A stretch of 64,000 nt of DNA from Croceivirga sp. Its GTDB lineage: Bacteria; Bacteroidota; Bacteroidia; Flavobacteriales; Flavobacteriaceae. Shown in pieces: positions 14,707 through 22,787 of this stretch (positions within the stretch are counted from its first letter, which is position 1; every line of letters starts with the position of its first letter). The stretch spans positions 62,001-126,000 of the forward strand of contig JANQRG010000045.1 in NCBI GenBank assembly GCA_028284665.1, read 5' to 3'. The translations under genes and the position numbers were made by a program. The notes beneath the pieces were generated by a model, which searched no databases, was not told the DNA's origin, and saw only the letters and a list, made by a program, of their open reading frames with translations.

Positions 14707-15759
14707 ATGCTCGAAGACAAAAATCCTTCCCGGACGTCATTAGAACAGTTAGGTGAATTTGGACTGATACAACATCTTACCAAAGACTTTGAACTGAAAC
14801 AATCTTCCTCCATTATGGGGGTGGGAGATGATGCTGCCATACTTGATTTCGGGGATCATAAAACTGTAGTTTCCACGGATCTTCTGGTGGAAGGGGTGCA
14901 TTTTGACCTTAGCTACATGCCCCTAAAACATTTGGGATATAAAGCGGTGATCGTGAATCTTTCGGATATCTATGCTATGAATGCACAGGCCACTCAAGTC
15001 ACGGTTTCCCTGGCTATCTCCAATCGATTCCCTCTTGAAGCCCTGGAAGCGTTTTATACCGGTGTAGCTCAAGCCTGTAAATTATATGGTGTAGATATGG
15101 TTGGGGGGGATACTACTTCTTCTACTAAAGGCATGCTAATTAGTGTTACGGCTTTAGGTTTCGCAAAGGAAGAGCAACTTGTCTACCGTTCGGGCGCGAA
15201 GGAAAACGACCTTTTGGTGGTAACGGGAGATCTAGGTGGTGCCTATTTAGGACTTCAGGTGTTGGAACGTGAAAAAGCGGTTTTTAAAGTGAATCCCAAC
15301 AGTCAACCTGATTTGGAACCTTATGCCTACATCGTTGAGCGACAATTAAAACCTGAAGCCAGAAAGGACATTGTTGAATTACTTAAAAAACTGGAGGTGC
15401 GCCCTACTGCGATGATCGACATAAGTGATGGCCTATCATCAGAGATCCTTCATCTATGTGAACGAAGCGATGTGGGTTGTAATCTCTACGAGGATAAAAT
15501 TCCCTTAGACCCCACTGTTATTGCGGCTGCAGAAGAATTTAAAATGGACAGCACACTCATTGCTTTGAGCGGTGGGGAGGATTACGAATTGCTATTTACC
15601 ATTGACCAAAAAGAATTCCCGAAAATCAAGGGCAATCCTAATCTTACGGTTTTGGGGCACATGACGCATAAAAATGAGGGAGCACACCTGATCTCCAGGA
15701 ATGGCGCTAAAATTCCGTTAACGGCGCAGGGCTGGAATTCCTTTACCGGGAACGAATAA
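14707..15759 (+). CDS. thiL: Thiamine-monophosphate kinase ThiL
   Basis: ATP-dependent enzyme that phosphorylates thiamine monophosphate to the cofactor thiamine diphosphate. The 350-residue chain has the ThiL/PurM-type N-terminal metal site GVGDDAAI, STDLLVEGVHF, VNLSDIYAMNA and GGDTTSS, and the C-terminal SGGEDYELLF. The start MLEDKNPSRTSLEQLGEFGL is the usual flavobacterial N terminus. Its last 130 bases are repeated in degraded form at 22113-22242. Confidence 0.96.
   Translation: MLEDKNPSRTSLEQLGEFGLIQHLTKDFELKQSSSIMGVGDDAAILDFGDHKTVVSTDLLVEGVHFDLSYMPLKHLGYKAVIVNLSDIYAMNAQATQVTVSLAISNRFPLEALEAFYTGVAQACKLYGVDMVGGDTTSSTKGMLISVTALGFAKEEQLVYRSGAKENDLLVVTGDLGGAYLGLQVLEREKAVFKVNPNSQPDLEPYAYIVERQLKPEARKDIVELLKKLEVRPTAMIDISDGLSSEILHLCERSDVGCNLYEDKIPLDPTVIAAAEEFKMDSTLIALSGGEDYELLFTIDQKEFPKIKGNPNLTVLGHMTHKNEGAHLISRNGAKIPLTAQGWNSFTGNE
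15614..15744 (+). repeat. Left copy of a thiL 3'-end direct repeat
   Basis: This stretch of the intact thiL gene aligns with 22113-22242 in the same orientation, with about 15 mismatches and one gap over 131 bases by hand count (about 88% identity). Between the copies lie the AraC regulator and the ABC/LolA-like module. Confidence 0.9.
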
Positions 15760-15790
15760 ATTCATAGCTTGTAGTTTTAATTACTTCTTT

Positions 15791-16933
15791 ATGGAAATTG
15801 TCTTAAATGCCGGGTTGGGCATTGGTGTTTTCATTTTTCTTCTTCTGTTTTTTAAGAAGGGAAAAGAACAAGGGGATTTCTTTTTCCTGGGATGGATTGG
15901 AGTGACTTTACTTCAAATTGCATTTAACCAAATCACTATTTATCACTTTGAATTGCATGGGGTTTGGGCCGTTATGGCCTTTGGATTTCCAATGTTGGGC
16001 GCTCCCCTACTTTTTCTCTATATTTTATCCTTGACCGGGCACCAGGTGTCCTGGAAAACCATGGGTTCTCACCTTGGAGTGTATCCGATCTATGTAATTT
16101 CTTTTTTTATCCTTGCGAACAAATTCAGTGTTAACCTAACCGCCGTTAACGGATATTTCAAGGTTTTTGAGGATTCTCCTGAGTGGATGCAGTATTATGC
16201 AATTCCCCTGGCACTGTCTGGCTTAGTGTATTGCATATGGGATTTGTTCTTGCTTAAGCGTCATCGTAAAAATATAGCCGAACTGTTCTCCTTTGATGAA
16301 AAGATCAACCTTAAATGGCTGGAGTATGTTGTGTACTCGTATCTCATTTTATTTGTTTTGGCTTCTTTTTTGATATTCGGCGCTACTCAATTTCAACTTA
16401 TCCCACTTCAAAATGCTTTTGCCCTGGTTGGGATAACATTAAGTTTAATGTTGATTGCTTTTGGTTTTTATGGTTTTCGCCAAACCGCCATCTTTACCGG
16501 GAACAATATGCAGTACAAATCCTTTCTGGAATTGGATACCTCCTCCTCAAAAAAAGCAGCGTATTCCAAATCCGGACTTACCGCAAAAAAAGTGGATACG
16601 CTGGGAATCCAACTCATGGAGTACATGCAAATAGAAAAACCATTTTTGGACGAAGACCTTAGTTTATCCCTTTTGTCCGAAAAAAGTGGCATTAATCAAT
16701 CCCATCTCTCCCAGGTCATCAATCAACATTTTGATTTGAATTTTTATGACTTTGTAAATCAATACCGGGTAGACGAAGCAAAGAGAATGCTTAGTTCCCC
16801 TAAGTTCGATCATCTTTCCGTTTTGGGGATCGCTTATGATTGTGGTTTTAAGTCAAAGTCTTCTTTTAACCGGTATTTTAAGAAGTACACCTCCTTCTCC
16901 CCATCAGAATTCAAAAAAAAGAAGACCCAATAG
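15791..16933 (+). CDS. AraC-family regulator with polytopic membrane sensor domain
   Basis: A 380-residue membrane-bound regulator. The first 235 residues contain about seven hydrophobic segments (for example NAGLGIGVFIFLLLFF, ALVGITLSLMLIAFGFYGF), followed by a linker and an AraC-type HTH pair at about 275-377 with LSEKSGINQSHLSQVIN and IAYDCGFKSKSSFNRYFKK. This architecture is common in Bacteroidota, and the ligand is unknown. It lies 31 bases after thiL and upstream of the transport module in the same direction, so it is a candidate local regulator. Confidence 0.85.
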   Translation: MEIVLNAGLGIGVFIFLLLFFKKGKEQGDFFFLGWIGVTLLQIAFNQITIYHFELHGVWAVMAFGFPMLGAPLLFLYILSLTGHQVSWKTMGSHLGVYPIYVISFFILANKFSVNLTAVNGYFKVFEDSPEWMQYYAIPLALSGLVYCIWDLFLLKRHRKNIAELFSFDEKINLKWLEYVVYSYLILFVLASFLIFGATQFQLIPLQNAFALVGITLSLMLIAFGFYGFRQTAIFTGNNMQYKSFLELDTSSSKKAAYSKSGLTAKKVDTLGIQLMEYMQIEKPFLDEDLSLSLLSEKSGINQSHLSQVINQHFDLNFYDFVNQYRVDEAKRMLSSPKFDHLSVLGIAYDCGFKSKSSFNRYFKKYTSFSPSEFKKKKTQ

Positions 16934-17022
16934 GTTTCAGCCAATGGGTTGGGTCGTACGAGCAGCCAACTTCTCAGAGATTTGTTTAACAATTACCAGG
17001 GCGATCAAAACGCCGGTAATTC

Positions 17023-18279
17023 ATGATAAACAATAGTATTCCCATGATAGGACTCTCCTTCAAAAATATCATCAGAAAAAGATCAAGAGCCCTACTGATC
17101 TTTATTCTAAGCGTGATTTCCGCATTCAATATTTTCACTCAGGTTGCACAAAAAAACAGCGTAAAAAACAGTCTTAAAAAACTGATAACCGAAGCGATAT
17201 CCGGGCAATATATCATTTACGATTCCGAAAAAAACATCAACGTACTTGAATCACAATTTTCGGACGTAACGCTATTTGAATGGCATTCTCAGGATAGTGC
17301 TAAACTGCTGGAAAAAAATCCGAACATCAAAACTATTGAACAACGATTACGCTTTGGGGGAATGTTGTCCTATGGCGAAGAGAGTATGGGTATCCACTTT
17401 CAGGCATTGTCCCAAAAACACCTGCAACGCGTTAGCAACATCCTGGATTATAAAGAGGGTTCTCACCCAAAAAAAGAAAACCAGATCATGATAAGCGAAA
17501 CGTTTGCGGATGAACTTGGGACAAATGTAGGTGACACCCTGGTGGTTTTGGTAAACAACAGGGATGGGTATCTCAGCGACAATCTTTTACAGGTCTCGGG
17601 AGTATTCAGAACAATAGGGCCCGCGCAGTTTCTACTCCCTATTGGCTTTATTCATTATAAAAAAGGAATGGAAATTTTAAGGCTTGAAGATCAAGAGGTA
17701 ATGGAAGTCCTGGTCAATTACCATACTCTTGAGCATTCGGTAAATGGAGCAGATACTCTAAAAAATCAAGTATCGGACATTAACCCCCGTTTGAAAATCG
17801 CAGCCTGGGAAAAAACCGCTCCCTTGTTAAATTCCATTCTAGGTGTTTGGGTCAATGCAGGTCACGCTATAAAAACAGTTTTTATTGTTTTTAGCGTCTT
17901 GGTATTGGTCAACATCATTATTATGATGACCAATAACAGAAAAAAAGAAATCGGTACGCTGCTTGCGTTTGGTTTTAGGCCCTATAGCATTATCAACACC
18001 ATAGCGCTTGAGTACATTGTTTTGATCTCATCCGGAATTTTTTTGATTGGAGGGCTATTAAAACTGATTTTTGATCAATTCCTCCAAAGCGGGATCCCTA
18101 TTCCTTCTGAAGAGCTACAAGCGGCCTACCTGAGCACATCCATTTTCCCCGAACTCTATTGGTCTGAGATTCTCTGGGTTATGCTATTATTTGGAATGGC
18201 TTGCTATCTGGCCGTTCTGGTTTCCCTGAGAAAACTTTTCCATACAGAAATAACGACCCTATTAAGAACCACTACCTAA
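17023..18279 (+). CDS. FtsX-family ABC permease (first of two)
   Basis: A 418-residue permease of the FtsX/LolC/MacB type: one N-terminal membrane helix (about 22-42), a periplasmic domain of some 220 residues, and three C-terminal helices including VFIVFSVLVLVNIIIMMTN and the cytoplasmic coupling stretch KKEIGTLLAFGFRP. The ATG at 17023 is used; an in-frame ATG at 17044 (MIGLSFKNIIRKR) is equally plausible. It is likely to pair with the next permease and the ATPase at 21416. Confidence 0.85.
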   Translation: MINNSIPMIGLSFKNIIRKRSRALLIFILSVISAFNIFTQVAQKNSVKNSLKKLITEAISGQYIIYDSEKNINVLESQFSDVTLFEWHSQDSAKLLEKNPNIKTIEQRLRFGGMLSYGEESMGIHFQALSQKHLQRVSNILDYKEGSHPKKENQIMISETFADELGTNVGDTLVVLVNNRDGYLSDNLLQVSGVFRTIGPAQFLLPIGFIHYKKGMEILRLEDQEVMEVLVNYHTLEHSVNGADTLKNQVSDINPRLKIAAWEKTAPLLNSILGVWVNAGHAIKTVFIVFSVLVLVNIIIMMTNNRKKEIGTLLAFGFRPYSIINTIALEYIVLISSGIFLIGGLLKLIFDQFLQSGIPIPSEELQAAYLSTSIFPELYWSEILWVMLLFGMACYLAVLVSLRKLFHTEITTLLRTTT

Positions 18280-18296
18280 CGCAAATAAAAGTTGTC

Positions 18297-19511
18297 ATGG
18301 GCATTTTTATAAAAGTAGCATTACGAAATATCATGAGGCATTGGGGTCGGAACACCTTAATAGGTTCAAGCATTGCCTTAGCAACAGGTCTTTTCTTTTT
18401 TGTTGTATCAATTTCAGCGGGGATAGAACGGCAAATGATCGGAAATCTCGTGCAGATTGAAACTGGCGCTGTTTCCTTTTCCCTGCCGGATAGTTTGCTA
18501 AAAAAGACCAACAATGAACGGAAACAAAAGCTCGTTGACCTTACCATTAGCGTTCAAAATATACCGGAAGTTTCCGGGGTGAGGGAGCGGCTCTACGCCA
18601 GGGCATTATTACATGCCGGCAACCAATCAGCAGACATCAACCTAAGGGGTGTAGATTGGGCCAGGGAATCCGCTTTATTCTCTAGCCTTCGATTTGACAG
18701 TACCCAAGCAAAGGACAGCTTACAGTCCGGGCTATTGATCAGCGAAAGTGTTGCAAAAAAACTTGGTGTTGGCATAAACGACCCCTGCGCCATTATGCTT
18801 CAAACGGTACAGGGCAGCTTAAATCTGGACGAATATCCCATAAGTGGTGTTTACAAGAACATATCAGGGTGGGCAAATACCATGGTATTTCTCAACATAG
18901 AAGAGGCTAAGATTCTGATGAACAGTGTCTTGCCTACGCACATCCTCATCGATACCGAAGCGTTGAAGACAACACCATCCATTTTGTTGAAGACTAAAAA
19001 CCTACTACTGCAGGAATTTAATGATACTATGGAGATAGAAGAGTATAAAGACAGGGCATCTATGGCCTCAACCATTTCCAATGCAAACAAATATGGCTTT
19101 TTGAGTATTGTTTTCTTTTTACAGCTGATTTCGTTCTTCGGGATCGGTTTCGTAGTTCACAATCATCTCATAGAGCGTAGCAAGGAAATTGGCACCCTTT
19201 TGGCCATTGGCTTTAAACCAAAGAATTTGAGGTTTTCCTTTCTTTTTGAAACCTTGGTCGTAGCCGCAATAGCTTCCTTAGTAGGACTCGTCCTATTTGG
19301 TCTACTAACCCTGTTTCTGTCCAGGGAAGGTATCTTTTTGGGAGATAGCGCTACTCTAATCTTTGGAAGCAATGTCTTGAAACCCCATTTCCATTTTCCA
19401 ACCCTTTTGATCGCGTTGGCCATTGGCCTTGTTTATCCATTGTTGTCGGGTCTTTGGAGTACACGAAGTATCCAAAAAGCAAACCCCATTCAACTGATCT
19501 ATGATCGATAA
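18297..19511 (+). CDS. FtsX-family ABC permease (second of two)
   Basis: A 404-residue permease with the same plan as its neighbour: an N-terminal helix (GSSIALATGLFFFVVSISAG), a periplasmic domain, and a C-terminal three-helix block with the coupling motif KEIGTLLAIGFKP. The ATG at 18297 (MGIFIKVALRNIMRHW) was chosen because the longer frame from 18201 overlaps the first permease. Two different FtsX-type chains with a single ATPase resemble the LolC/LolE plus LolD arrangement. Confidence 0.85.
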   Translation: MGIFIKVALRNIMRHWGRNTLIGSSIALATGLFFFVVSISAGIERQMIGNLVQIETGAVSFSLPDSLLKKTNNERKQKLVDLTISVQNIPEVSGVRERLYARALLHAGNQSADINLRGVDWARESALFSSLRFDSTQAKDSLQSGLLISESVAKKLGVGINDPCAIMLQTVQGSLNLDEYPISGVYKNISGWANTMVFLNIEEAKILMNSVLPTHILIDTEALKTTPSILLKTKNLLLQEFNDTMEIEEYKDRASMASTISNANKYGFLSIVFFLQLISFFGIGFVVHNHLIERSKEIGTLLAIGFKPKNLRFSFLFETLVVAAIASLVGLVLFGLLTLFLSREGIFLGDSATLIFGSNVLKPHFHFPTLLIALAIGLVYPLLSGLWSTRSIQKANPIQLIYDR

Positions 19512-19529
19512 GAACAAAAACATAAGCAA

Positions 19530-20255
19530 ATGAAAACCTTACACCGCACAATTTTAGCATTGGCACTAATGGTATGTTCCCATACGATACATACCCAGAT
19601 ACAACCATTGGAATTGCTGGAAAAATTAGACAGAAACTTCTTCGCCATGGATATGGAATTCGTCATGCAAATGCAAATACTCCGTAAAGAAAAGGTAAAG
19701 CGCACCTATGAAATGAAAGTCTTTAGAAAGGGCAAAAAACTACGATTGACCATTCTTGAACCTAGTATTGAACGCGACAGAAGAATTTTAAACGATGGGG
19801 ATAATCTATGGATGTTTTTACCTCGCTCCAGCAAATTGATAAAAATACCCTATAAACAGGCCTTTTTGGGTGGGGATGCTTCCAATAGAGATATCCTAAG
19901 GATTTCATTGGTAGAAGACTACGACATCCTTGGCCCGGTCGAAAAAACCGAGAAGCATTTGGTACTCCGTTTAAAGGCAAAGGACCTAAAAACGGCCTAC
20001 AACCAGGTTAATTTTTACTTGGACAAGCAAACTAAGCTTCCCATATCACAGGAAATGCTGAGTCTGTCCGGTAAGGTCATAAAAACGATCCAGTACGACG
20101 ATTTCACAAATTTGGGGGAGGTCCGCTTCCCTACCAAACTAACCATTTTAGATGCACTGAACAAAGATTCAAAAACCGTTTTTACGTATTCTGAAATTAC
20201 CAGGGGAACAACAAAGCAAGCTATTTTCTTCACTACTGCACTATTGAGTAAATGA
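19530..20255 (+). CDS. LolA-like outer-membrane lipoprotein-sorting protein
   Basis: A 241-residue periplasmic protein with signal peptide (cleavage near HTIHTQ). It belongs to the COG2834-type LolA-like family: RRILNDGDNLWMFLPRSSKL and the following IPYKQAFLGGDASNRDIL are its most typical segments. LolA relatives carry hydrophobic cargo between membranes. Placed directly after two FtsX permeases, it is the natural periplasmic carrier of this module; the cargo cannot be read from the sequence. Confidence 0.8.
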   Translation: MKTLHRTILALALMVCSHTIHTQIQPLELLEKLDRNFFAMDMEFVMQMQILRKEKVKRTYEMKVFRKGKKLRLTILEPSIERDRRILNDGDNLWMFLPRSSKLIKIPYKQAFLGGDASNRDILRISLVEDYDILGPVEKTEKHLVLRLKAKDLKTAYNQVNFYLDKQTKLPISQEMLSLSGKVIKTIQYDDFTNLGEVRFPTKLTILDALNKDSKTVFTYSEITRGTTKQAIFFTTALLSK

Positions 20256-20270
20256 TGTTATTACGTTAAA

Positions 20271-21404
20271 ATGACAGGTTTTGCCAAACATATCGGGCTA
20301 TTGTTGCATTGGTTTTTTTCCAGTATTCTTTTGTACCCCCAGAATGAGTTTTCTTATCGTGTCATCAACGAAAATGTATTTACGTACAATCTGATTTCGG
20401 AAGATACCCCGGTGAACCCAACGAATCTTTTAGCACTATCGGAATTAGAAACCGTAAACCGATTTTTCCCAATAGGAACTTTTAAGCAAGACAGATTAAC
20501 ACTACAGGTGGAACCAAGGATCTTTTTTGACCCCATATCGGAAAACATTGATGTTGCTTTTAATGAGTTCTATGTGCGATATGGACTATCAGAGGCTTTC
20601 TATGTTACTTTTGGAAAGGAACGAATTAACTGGGGGACAGGAACCGTTTGGAACCCTTCCAATCCGTTTCTACAGAAGGACCCTTTTCGCCTGGATAACC
20701 GATTGGAAGGGGTTTTTCTCACCAACTTGGAATATATTTTCCCTCGTCTCACGCTAAATCTGCTTTTCTCACCCTCCGAAAAAGTAAATACTTCTACGCT
20801 TGCTCTTAAAGCAAGTTCCACTATTAAATCATTTGACTATTCATTCAACTATGCTTTTCTGGGCGATGGTAGGCAACAGTTTGCATGTGATTTTAGTCTG
20901 GGTACGGACAATTTTACCTTTTACGGGGAAGGACTTTTACGAAATTTTTCAAATACGGGTTTAGTGGATCCTTCCGGAAGCATAACACCAACCCCTGAAA
21001 GAAACCGTTGGGAAAATGTACGGTCGGAATTTGTTTTGGGCAGTATGCTCAATACCTTCATCAGAACCATACTTGTGTTGGAGTATCGCTACCGTAGTGA
21101 CTTCAACACTAAGAACAGTATTGCGAACTTTAGGTCTTTTCTTCCAGGCAACCTGGAATTGTACGACCCTATCAGCATGGGGCGGCATAGCTTTTTTTCA
21201 CAAATTAGTTATACCGACCCTTACTCCAAATACAATGTAAACACTTCGCTTTTCTTTGATCCCATAACACAGCAGTTGCTATGTTCTCCCGGGTTCATCT
21301 ATAGCGGTGAAAACATAAAATTGGAAATCAATCCTTTTATATACGGAAACTCCCTTTCCCTTTATGATATTCAGGGAAGGGTAATACTATCCTTCTTTCT
21401 TTAA
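20271..21404 (+). CDS. Outer-membrane beta-barrel protein, DUF1302-like motif
   Basis: A 377-residue exported protein (hydrophobic start, cleavage near LLYPQ) rich in alternating aromatic strands and ending in Phe-Leu (VILSFFL), consistent with a beta-barrel. The segment GKERINWGTGTVWNPSNPF resembles the strand-turn motif of DUF1302-type barrels, which in other bacteria accompany COG2834 proteins and export pumps. Role proposed: outer-membrane acceptor or channel for what the LolA-like protein delivers. Assignment to a named family needs a profile search. Confidence 0.7.
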   Translation: MTGFAKHIGLLLHWFFSSILLYPQNEFSYRVINENVFTYNLISEDTPVNPTNLLALSELETVNRFFPIGTFKQDRLTLQVEPRIFFDPISENIDVAFNEFYVRYGLSEAFYVTFGKERINWGTGTVWNPSNPFLQKDPFRLDNRLEGVFLTNLEYIFPRLTLNLLFSPSEKVNTSTLALKASSTIKSFDYSFNYAFLGDGRQQFACDFSLGTDNFTFYGEGLLRNFSNTGLVDPSGSITPTPERNRWENVRSEFVLGSMLNTFIRTILVLEYRYRSDFNTKNSIANFRSFLPGNLELYDPISMGRHSFFSQISYTDPYSKYNVNTSLFFDPITQQLLCSPGFIYSGENIKLEINPFIYGNSLSLYDIQGRVILSFFL

Positions 21405-21415
21405 AAACATCAACT

Positions 21416-22108
21416 ATGGAAGCATCTCCTCTTTTAGAACTAACGGACATCTCAAAATCATATACTCTGGGCAAGACCAAATTTCAGGTATTAAAAAGCA
21501 TTACTACCTTTTTCCGTTCCGGCTGCTTCAGTGTTATTGCCGGACCTTCCGGTTCTGGAAAATCTACCTTACTGAATGTACTGGGATGTTTAGATACGCC
21601 TGACCAGGGAAACTATATATTGAACAATAGAACGATCAATTACCACAATAAAAAAGAATTGGCAACTACACGAAAGAATAATTTTGGTTTTGTATTTCAG
21701 TCATTTAATCTTATTCCCGTTTTAACGGCAATAGAGAACGTAGAACTCCCAATGACACTGCATGCATTTACCAAAAAGGAGACTCGGGAAAAATCTGAGG
21801 AAATATTACATCTTGTGGGCCTTGGTCATCGCCTACATAACAAACCCGGTGAACTGTCCGGGGGAGAGCAGCAGCGCGTTGCCATTGCCAGGGCTATAGT
21901 TTCCAAACCAAAAGTTGTATTTGCGGACGAACCCACTGCCAACCTGGACCGAAAAAACACTAAAAATATAGTTGCTTTGATGCAAAAACTGAATGCCGAA
22001 TACAACATATCCTTTGTTTTTGCCAGCCATGATGAAGCCGTGATTCAAGCGGCAAAAGAATTGTATATTCTTGAGAATGGTAGACTTCAATTTAAAAAAG
22101 TGGTGTAA
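21416..22108 (+). CDS. ABC transporter ATPase (LolD/MacB type)
   Basis: A 230-residue ATPase: Walker A GPSGSGKST, Q-loop FVFQSFNLIP, signature LSGGEQQRVAIARAI, Walker B VVFADEPTANLD and switch His in FASHDEAV. The subfamily (LolD/FtsE/MacB) normally works with FtsX-type permeases, and two are encoded just upstream. Its stop codon is 4 bases before the degraded thiL copy, marking the right edge of the module. Confidence 0.93.
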   Translation: MEASPLLELTDISKSYTLGKTKFQVLKSITTFFRSGCFSVIAGPSGSGKSTLLNVLGCLDTPDQGNYILNNRTINYHNKKELATTRKNNFGFVFQSFNLIPVLTAIENVELPMTLHAFTKKETREKSEEILHLVGLGHRLHNKPGELSGGEQQRVAIARAIVSKPKVVFADEPTANLDRKNTKNIVALMQKLNAEYNISFVFASHDEAVIQAAKELYILENGRLQFKKVV

Positions 22109-22112
22109 AAAA

Positions 22113-22242
22113 AATTCCCGAAAATCAAGGGCAATCCAGGTCTTACGGTCTTGGGGCACATGACGCATAAAAACGAGGGCGCACACTCAATCTCCAGGAA
22201 TGGCCCTACAATACCGTTAACGGGCAAGGCCGAAATTCCTTT
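22113..22242 (+). pseudogene. Degraded duplicate of the thiL 3' end
   Basis: The sequence encodes, in the thiL frame, FPKIKGNPGLTVLGHMTHKN and further recognisable ThiL residues, but lacks the upstream two thirds of the gene and ends without the thiL stop. Of the substitutions relative to the intact copy, about half fall in third codon positions, as if it had diverged while coding. Best read as a leftover of thiL from recombination or insertion of the intervening block. Confidence 0.85.
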
Positions 22243-22247
22243 GCGAC

Positions 22248-22520
22248 TTAGGCTACCTGTGGCGGAAGTGTCACCCCTCCGGCACGGCGTCTATTGCGCT
22301 TTTGATACATGTCTTCCAGGGTCTGATTAATTTCCTGCATTTGTGGGGTCAGAACGGATAATTTGCCATTTTCATTGGTGGTTACCCGTTTTTGACAATG
22401 GATGCATCTGTACTCTTTAATGTGCTGGGTCACCTGTTTGGAAACTACGTAGTGATGTCCGAATATGTTGCAGAAAATTCCGGTAAGTTTGTGACCATTG
22501 GGAGTAATGGTTTTTTTCAT
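22248..22520 (-). CDS. Small conserved protein with Cys/His metal-binding pattern
   Basis: A 90-residue basic protein (from ATG 22520; an upstream ATG at 22544 adds 8 residues). It has an N-terminal FCNIFGHHY and a CIHC pair about 30 residues later, a pattern that suggests a small zinc-binding fold reminiscent of DUF1660-like proteins; similarity is weak. The C-terminal third is polar and Arg-rich. It ends six bases from the thiL remnant. Function unknown. Confidence 0.6.
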   Translation of the reverse strand: MKKTITPNGHKLTGIFCNIFGHHYVVSKQVTQHIKEYRCIHCQKRVTTNENGKLSVLTPQMQEINQTLEDMYQKRNRRRAGGVTLPPQVA

Positions 22521-22787
22521 AAGCTTGGAACGGTTTAGATGCATGTTTCGATTTGGGGACCGAATTATGCGTAATTAGTTGGACTATTAGGGGTCTTTTG
22601 TTAAAAAAATGTTTGGCTTTGTTTAAAGTGCAACGATTCCAATTTCATCTTTATTTTGGTGCCATGCCATTTTTTTTCACTTTTTCGATGAATGACACAA
22701 TTTCGACCAAATACACAATAAAATCGATGAACCGTAACTGCCAGAAATATACAAAATTGCAGTATTGCAACAAACATTTTTGAGGTA

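Follow-up and report, generated by a model that had tools for sequence, protein, structure and literature searches.

The thiamine-phosphate kinase gene thiL of a Croceivirga genome shares its 3' end with a conserved structured RNA element that recurs behind a convergent gene, zn98, encoding a 98-aa protein. The element was found in a 64,000-nt stretch of Croceivirga sp. (GenBank assembly GCA_028284665.1, contig JANQRG010000045.1, positions 62,001–126,000; hereafter the window), in which an earlier note, made from the sequence alone, had reported a direct repeat of the thiL 3' end on both sides of a gene block. Computational comparison across Flavobacteriaceae established the element, its structure, its link to zn98, two genomic states and the constraint. 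The explanation that we consider probable as a whole is that a zn98-linked RNA, antisense within the thiL tail, was freed by duplication of that tail, which left a gap open to genes.

Tail-to-tail placement of thiL and zn98 is common to many Flavobacteriaceae. According to this explanation, the zn98 message would end in a hairpin of ~106 nt followed by a U-run, probably a transcription terminator and perhaps a stable 3' RNA too. In a set of genera, a single DNA stretch would serve twice, one strand encoding the ThiL C-terminus and the opposite one the RNA. Other lineages would have duplicated the tail, the left copy completing thiL and the right copy, the displaced original end, staying with zn98; thereafter the left copy would be free to lose RNA features, and the right copy would lose the reading frame and keep the RNA. 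Genes could then occupy the space between the copies, here an AraC-type regulator and a LolCDE-like operon. A bolder version, towards which we lean only slightly, holds that a new structured-RNA family was born antisense in the thiL tail, imposes codon and residue choices on ThiL and has repeatedly been freed by duplication with specialisation of the copies, opening an insertion slot.

A conserved RNA element behind zn98

A covariance model (R1) was built from 16 separate copies of the element, read on the minus strand, six of them from Croceivirga and one with a 1.1-kb insert. Their consensus is a long hairpin of ~106 nt with a terminal U-run, in which an outer stem of 14 pairs (at least 16 in some single folds) encloses a long, partly structured interior that includes an inner hairpin GUC..GAC with a GCCCCA loop. 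The right copy of the window scores 105.5 bits, being itself one of the 16 sequences from which R1 was built, and the minus strand of the left repeat (15609–15714) still matches with 98.8 bits. At E ≤ 0.001, R1 matched 91 of 397 sampled genomes of the family, in 63 of 237 genera; 52 genomes reached at least 60 bits by our own count of the listing, and weaker matches may reflect thiL coding similarity alone, those below about 46 bits not having been fetched individually. In a phylum sample, 7 of 296 genomes matched, all in the same family. No Rfam family reached its gathering score in the window between 14000 and 24000, in seven relatives or in the stretches of L066 and L153 (L numbers denote loci). 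The known flavobacterial RNA 6S-Flavo was rejected as the identity of the element, which gave no match to it, and the genome has its own 6S-Flavo elsewhere. The element is thus a candidate RNA family without an Rfam match in Flavobacteriaceae.

Its position is tied to zn98. At all 49 loci with a separate element, element and zn98 share a strand, and the element comes a median of 42 nt after the zn98 stop codon (range −31 to 96). Where the element is embedded in thiL (state A, below), it lies on the zn98 strand in 25 of 26 cases, at a median of 43 nt (range −1 to 66). At two of the 49 loci, L188 and L202 of one genus, the element follows zn98, and the 8 kb covered there, which extend ~3.7 kb to each side, contain no thiL.

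Two hallmarks of a terminator are present, namely the constant place behind a gene on the same strand and a minus-strand U-run after the outer stem, and this combination of structure and place suggests termination as the function. The longest U-run averages 6.4 nt in separate elements (n = 47), compared with 4.7 in the embedded form (n = 26) and 3.9 in thiL tails from state S (n = 32). The motif TAnnTTTG, which we take to be the Bacteroidota promoter element, did not occur in the 160 nt before the element in sets of 26 and 47 loci, where shuffles gave 1.6 and 2.2 occurrences. A place in the 3' untranslated region (UTR) of zn98 is the simplest reading of this position.

Alternatively, the element may bind protein or act as a sequence-specific small RNA matured from the 3' end of zn98, with termination as a by-product; we regard this as a serious possibility that falls somewhat short of even. 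In 10 of 19 genome pairs, separate copies are 93–99% identical where thiL four-fold sites are 34–56% identical, and at least 80% of 45 elements retain the GCCCCA loop (most of its letters in at least 95%) even though it no longer codes; the absence of TAnnTTTG is weakly consistent with an origin in the 3' UTR. A terminator, however, would agree equally well with the U-run and the constant position behind zn98.

Embedded and separate states across Flavobacteriaceae

State A comprises 26 genomes of 18 genera, in which the element lies antisense within the last ~50 thiL codons and zn98 follows within 45 bp. Four loci scoring 47–52 bits (L209, L210, L212, L207) were kept in this state; two embedded matches of 46.6 bits (L213, L026) were placed outside it, L026 counting among genomes with neither feature and L213 in no group. 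State S comprises 47 loci, in which a separate element lies ahead of zn98 and thiL has its own tail copy. At 31 of these the separate element stands close behind thiL with no insert, as in Flagellimonas, Allomuricauda, Muricauda and Cellulophaga, where a similar stretch lies between thiL and zn98. The other 16 carry an insert between the tail copies: a hydrolase-like gene of ~1.04 kb (named from sequence, without a family search) in eight, an AraC homolog, alone or joined by a second protein, in five and a 6.3-kb block in three (the window, L030 and L023).

The slot with the hydrolase-like gene was seen at L183, L187, L189, L191, L197, L214, L218 and L219. In Pricia (L071), thiL is followed in turn by a disrupted araC homolog, another protein and the hydrolase-like gene.

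On a tree of the thiL body (85 rows, 13 of them with neither feature), the labels A, S and neither require 19 changes, and S alone requires 16, of which well-supported branches force at least five. Among sister pairs that differ in state are the window and G008, L192 and L178, and L195 and L161. The group with neither feature was chosen by hand from thiL-homolog loci and Croceivirga, and contributed 31 genomes to the shuffle and residue tests described below. Several genomes are metagenome assemblies. Phylogenetic non-independence was only partly handled.

Among 11 genomes of the Croceivirga genus (G000, the window's own, to G010), the block is present in G000, G006 and G009. It is absent from G001, G002, G003, G008 and G010, where thiL and zn98 stand tail to tail within about 40 bp; relatives with thiL directly adjoining the gene at 22248, for which the earlier note had proposed to look, thus exist. 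G004, G005 and G007 also lack the block, yet 106–119 bp behind thiL each repeats the thiL tail in shortened form, and therefore the right repeat exists without the block, as it does in Flagellimonas and others. In L026–L029 (G002, G003, G010 and G001, respectively), zn98 lies directly behind thiL with no strong element.

Fold, covariation and conservation

On the minus strand, 41 of 45 distinct separate elements are more stable than their dinucleotide shuffles (p ≤ 0.05, mean z −3.24), compared with 22 of 45 on the plus strand (mean z −1.90); in 35 of 45 the minus-strand fold has the greater stability. The structure of the separate elements was then applied to an alignment of 23 embedded tails, which leaves aside three 105-nt tails (L201, L207, L210): 91.7% of cells are paired, against 36–57% when the structure is slid, and 18 cells are changed on both sides, against 4.9 in shuffles (0/500).

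Conservation was compared in 19 hand-picked genome pairs, some of which share members. Mean identity is 93.7% for separate elements, 84.6% for thiL tails and 50.1% for thiL four-fold sites. The element exceeds the thiL tails in 16 of the 19 pairs, the exceptions being L190/L221, L073/L211 and a near-tie between the window and L023. Since separate copies keep 93.7% identity where thiL four-fold sites average ~50%, they are not decaying and are under constraint.

These results bear on the earlier view of the right copy as a decayed duplicate. Plain tandem duplication followed by functionless decay would account for the broken reading frames of most separate copies, but it is highly improbable: element identity exceeds that of thiL four-fold sites in 19 of 19 pairs, embedded tails show covariation, and in two genomes the element stands behind zn98 with no thiL nearby. 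The element also occurs in other genera without the block, and most state-S loci are free of any insert.

Sense and antisense information in the thiL tail

Codons of the thiL tail were swapped for synonymous ones drawn from the same gene; G006, whose thiL is cut by contig ends, was excluded from the thiL tests. The minus strand folds better than such shuffles (p ≤ 0.05) in 16 of 26 state-A tails, in none of 41 state-S tails, in none of five Croceivirga tails with a separate copy and in 6 of 31 tails with neither feature. A control stretch of thiL passed on the minus strand in 0/26, 1/41, 0/5 and 0/31, respectively. Pooling state A with the neither group (22/57) against all state S (0/46) gives a Fisher p of 2.6e-7, with the reservation that the genomes are not independent of one another. 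In Croceivirga, G008, with the embedded copy alone, passes (2/200), whereas the thiL tails of the window (18/200) and G005 (159/200) fail. At the protein level, K[EK]F, [VLM]GH, ISR and RN occur jointly in ThiL of 19 of 26 state-A genomes, 1 of 41 in state S, 2 of 5 Croceivirga in state S and 0 of 31 others. Among independent pairs, the fold is lost with a separate copy in three to four of five, and the reverse occurs in none.

Several observations weigh against the explanation set out above. Five independent pairs on well-supported branches are too few for significance. The plus strand passes the synonymous shuffle too in 9 of 26 state-A tails (elsewhere in 1/41 state S, 0/5 Croceivirga and 1/31 neither), and the minus strand passes in genomes that have neither feature. 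State A was itself found with R1, a model trained on separate copies, so that its tails were chosen for their resemblance to the element. Of 23 embedded tails, 16 leave the same one of the 20 tested pairs open and 20 have an interrupted U-run. A long interior lies within the stem, and conservation is greater than a plain terminator requires. Four Croceivirga genomes (G001, G002, G003, G010) have zn98 after thiL without a strong element (≤46.6 bits). Finally, the left copy of the window (−29.8 kcal/mol, z −2.59) folds as well as the right copy (−30.6 kcal/mol, z −2.36) against plain dinucleotide shuffles, which implies that any relaxation in the window's thiL is recent, weak or slight.

The direct repeat and the origin of the separate copy

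The direct repeat of the thiL 3' end described in the earlier note is real. By local alignment, 15608–15744 and 22107–22242 are identical in 120 of 137 columns in the same orientation, with 17 differences that include a 1-base gap; a repeat search returned 117 nt at 89% with a spacing of 6499. With the 131 bases of the left copy as query against its own genome, these two sites were the only matches at E ≤ 0.001, and their E-values of 2.7e-63 and 2.1e-40 exclude a chance origin. The block-side ends of both copies are flush. The right copy starts within the stop codon of the ABC ATPase gene (gene end 22108), a few bases earlier than the position 4 bases past that gene given previously. About half of the differences do fall in third codon positions (positions 1/2/3: 5/4/8), but 8 of 17 is no strong bias.

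Separate elements retain relics of the thiL reading frame. The right copies of L192 (G295) and L023 (G009) are open thiL ends with their own stop codon next to zn98, the window's right copy is open in the thiL frame to near its end, and in Flagellimonas only remnants such as TVLGH are left. The separate element of 41 out of 46 state-S genomes resembles the best of eight state-A tails (70–88%) more than the thiL tail of its own genome, an outcome that taking the best of eight favours. The exceptions are the own copies of the window (88%), G009 (93%) and L192 (97%), plus two ties; copies in these three genomes would be young or homogenised. Because of the frame relics and the closeness to state-A tails, the reading that we prefer for the right copy is an original thiL 3' end that was displaced.

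In L192, the tail copies are 97% identical across a 1.9-kb insert, and its genus mate L178 has a single copy; we read this tail pair as a recent duplication or gene conversion.

The identities of 88% in the window and 93% in G009 would also let the separate RNA pair with the thiL message, as a trans-acting antisense regulator of thiL would. This possibility appears very slight. Identity between the element and the thiL tail of the same genome has fallen to 57–78% across most of state S while the element is conserved, so pairing with the thiL message is not maintained.

The idea that the ~110-bp spacer between thiL stop and element in G004, G005 and G007 consists of araC scraps was rejected: 1 of 18 comparisons exceeded all shuffles, in a second test 21–175 of 500 shuffles were as good, and only a METVL-like start recalls araC. 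The ThiL C-terminus reads TGNE in G005, G007, G000 and G006, PGNE in G004 and NGTE in G009; the shared TGNE hints that G005 and G007 once had the left junction of the block, a hint that we do not count as established.

Horizontal sharing of the block

As the earlier note had it, a regulator and five further genes are confined between the repeat copies. The cargo is an AraC-type regulator followed by a LolCDE-like transport operon, as judged from family matches. Scores stayed below the LolCDE equivalog cut-offs: the two permeases scored 44.7 and 43.7 bits with the LolC/E model against a cut-off of 362.45, and the ATPase 225.9 bits with the LolD model against 307.75.

Block-bearing genomes do not form a clade in the rpoB tree. 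There G008, which has no block, is sister to G000 plus G006 (100/100), and G009 falls outside. The place of G009 is provisional: its branch is long, its composition, as in four others, is odd, and the thiL tree groups it with G004, G005 and G007 (support 90). Between G000 and G009, four-fold identity of the six block genes is 58, 57, 47, 45, 46 and 41%, against 28–37% for sufB, two flanking genes, thiL, brnQ and rpoB. The value for zn98 is 43%, from 28 four-fold sites only. Pooled counts, derived from rounded percentages with zn98 excluded, are 335/669 for the block and 378/1106 for the other genes (Fisher p 5e-11). Between G006 and G009 the block genes reach 42–60%, compared with 24–43% for g11994, g13353, thiL and rpoB and 44% for zn98. 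Between G000 and G006, divergence is similar throughout (block 72–83%, the rest 65–77%, zn98 85%). The higher block identity of G000 and G006 to G009 indicates that the block was shared horizontally after these lineages parted, and bears out its proposed acquisition at the thiL 3' end. The earlier reading therefore stands for the acquired block and falls for the decayed gene copy, which is a structured, conserved element.

Composition was rejected as the cause of the higher block identity, the sum of squared base frequencies being 0.25–0.28 in 11 window genes. The proposed GC comparison gave a small difference: 39–43% in block genes and 44% in thiL, zn98 and brnQ, with 41–50% at four-fold sites of block genes and 46–49% in five flanking genes. 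Vertical descent of araC was assessed through pairwise identities alone, which show no correlation with the thiL values (rho 0.19, p 0.42, 21 pairs).

Identity between G000 and G009 climbs at the left repeat and drops past the right repeat. This step at the repeat borders would fit recombination within the tails, which we infer as the route of entry; an RNA constraint on the tails predicts the same pattern.

Site-specific integration of an island into the thiL 3' end, restoring it and leaving the right copy as the displaced end, would explain why both copies end flush at the block, why the right copy of G009 is an open thiL end with a stop codon and why G008, the rpoB sister of G000 and G006, has an empty site. 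We nevertheless judge it unlikely. As the earlier note had observed, no integrase is evident: neither an integrase nor a transposase was found among the six proteins between the repeats, short overlapping open reading frames (ORFs) not having been scanned. The duplicated tail occurs without cargo in 31 of 47 state-S loci, other genera hold different cargo in the gap, and the right copy is under constraint.

Comparison with known systems

The closest published case found is mscL–arfA of Escherichia coli. According to PMC10070815, the 3' coding part of arfA matches the mscL 3' UTR as its complement and holds a stem-loop with RNase III sites; arfA RNA acts on mscL, and across species the pair occurs in overlapping, proximal and distal states. 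Common to both systems is a tail-to-tail gene pair with complementarity between one gene's 3' UTR and the coding end of its neighbour. They differ in genes and phylum, and the stem-loop reported in PMC10070815 belongs to the arfA transcript itself. In Flavobacteriaceae, by contrast, the conserved hairpin lies opposite the coding gene and belongs with the other gene, and the overlap was left by tail duplication.

Bidirectional or overlapping intrinsic terminators occur between convergent bacterial genes. The element resembles them in having a hairpin and U-run between convergent genes; unlike them, in state A the hairpin lies inside the opposing coding sequence; it is also conserved among genera of a single family, with its U-run on the minus strand. 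Like 6S-Flavo (RF01685), the element is a flavobacterial structured RNA of about 100 nt.

Integrative elements can restore the 3' end of their target gene. The window resembles such cases in its direct repeats of a gene 3' end at both borders and its displaced original end, and differs in that no integrase was found, the cargo varies and the repeats also occur without an insert. The cargo resembles LolCDE/LolA in its two FtsX permeases, LolD-like ATPase and LolA-like protein; unlike LolCDE, its permeases and ATPase score below NCBIfam equivalog cut-offs. Literature searches on convergent-gene terminators, thiL and small RNA, Croceivirga and flavobacterial RNA motifs did not find the element in titles and abstract openings, most subscription journals lying outside their coverage.

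What had looked like an island border becomes a natural experiment on overlapping information, in which lineages with enzyme C-terminus and RNA joined can be compared directly with those in which they are separated. It adds a candidate RNA family and yields testable predictions about antisense RNA constraint on a housekeeping protein, about the resolution of an overlap by duplication and about why some intergenic sites keep gaining genes. If true, the bolder version would amount to sense/antisense subfunctionalisation of one DNA stretch. The case also warns that direct repeats of a gene 3' end do not prove integration.

Genes of the window and neighbouring observations

Table 1. Features around the thiL tail repeat of the window.
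Feature	Coordinates	Strand	Evidence or remark
thiL, thiamine-phosphate kinase, 350 aa	14707..15759	+	TIGR01379 316.2 bits, cut-off 184.15
Left repeat	15608..15744	+	thiL coding tail
AraC-type regulator, 380 aa	15791..16933	+	PF12833
FtsX-type permease (LolC/E-like)	17023..18279	+	PF02687; TIGR02212 44.7 bits, below cut-off
FtsX/MacB-type permease (LolC/E-like)	18297..19511	+	PF02687, PF12704; TIGR02212 43.7 bits, below cut-off
LolA-like outer-membrane lipoprotein-sorting protein	19530..20255	+	PF17131 110.6 bits
377-aa protein without family	20271..21404	+	
ABC ATPase, LolD-like	21416..22108	+	PF00005; TIGR02211 225.9 bits, cut-off 307.75
Conserved structured RNA element (R1), core of right repeat	22108..22213	-	105.5 bits; proposed 3' end of zn98 message
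Outer part of right repeat	22214..22242	+	putative relict of displaced thiL 3' end
zn98, 98-aa protein, convergent to thiL	22248..22544	-	RNA element after stop codon

zn98 has a C-x2-C motif and is common behind thiL in the family. No Pfam or NCBIfam family matched it above cut-off; DUF1660 came near in one relative (19.5 against 21.4 bits). The 377-aa protein had no match in Pfam or NCBIfam and no close relative in a sample of 299 family genomes; within the genus, its close relatives are those of G006 and G009 alone. From its neighbouring genes, our guess is an outer-membrane protein.

Homologs of the block's AraC regulator sit behind thiL in other genera, and other families of Bacteroidota hold distant cassettes with related transport genes. 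The transport genes of the window (17023–22108) run in the order permease, permease, LolA-like protein, 377-aa protein and ATPase, whereas most of the distant cassettes (L141–L150) begin with the ATPase. On its other side, zn98 borders a further variable gap, about 1.7–9.4 kb long, which separates it from brnQ at L022, L024, L025 and L023 (G004, G005, G007 and G009, respectively).

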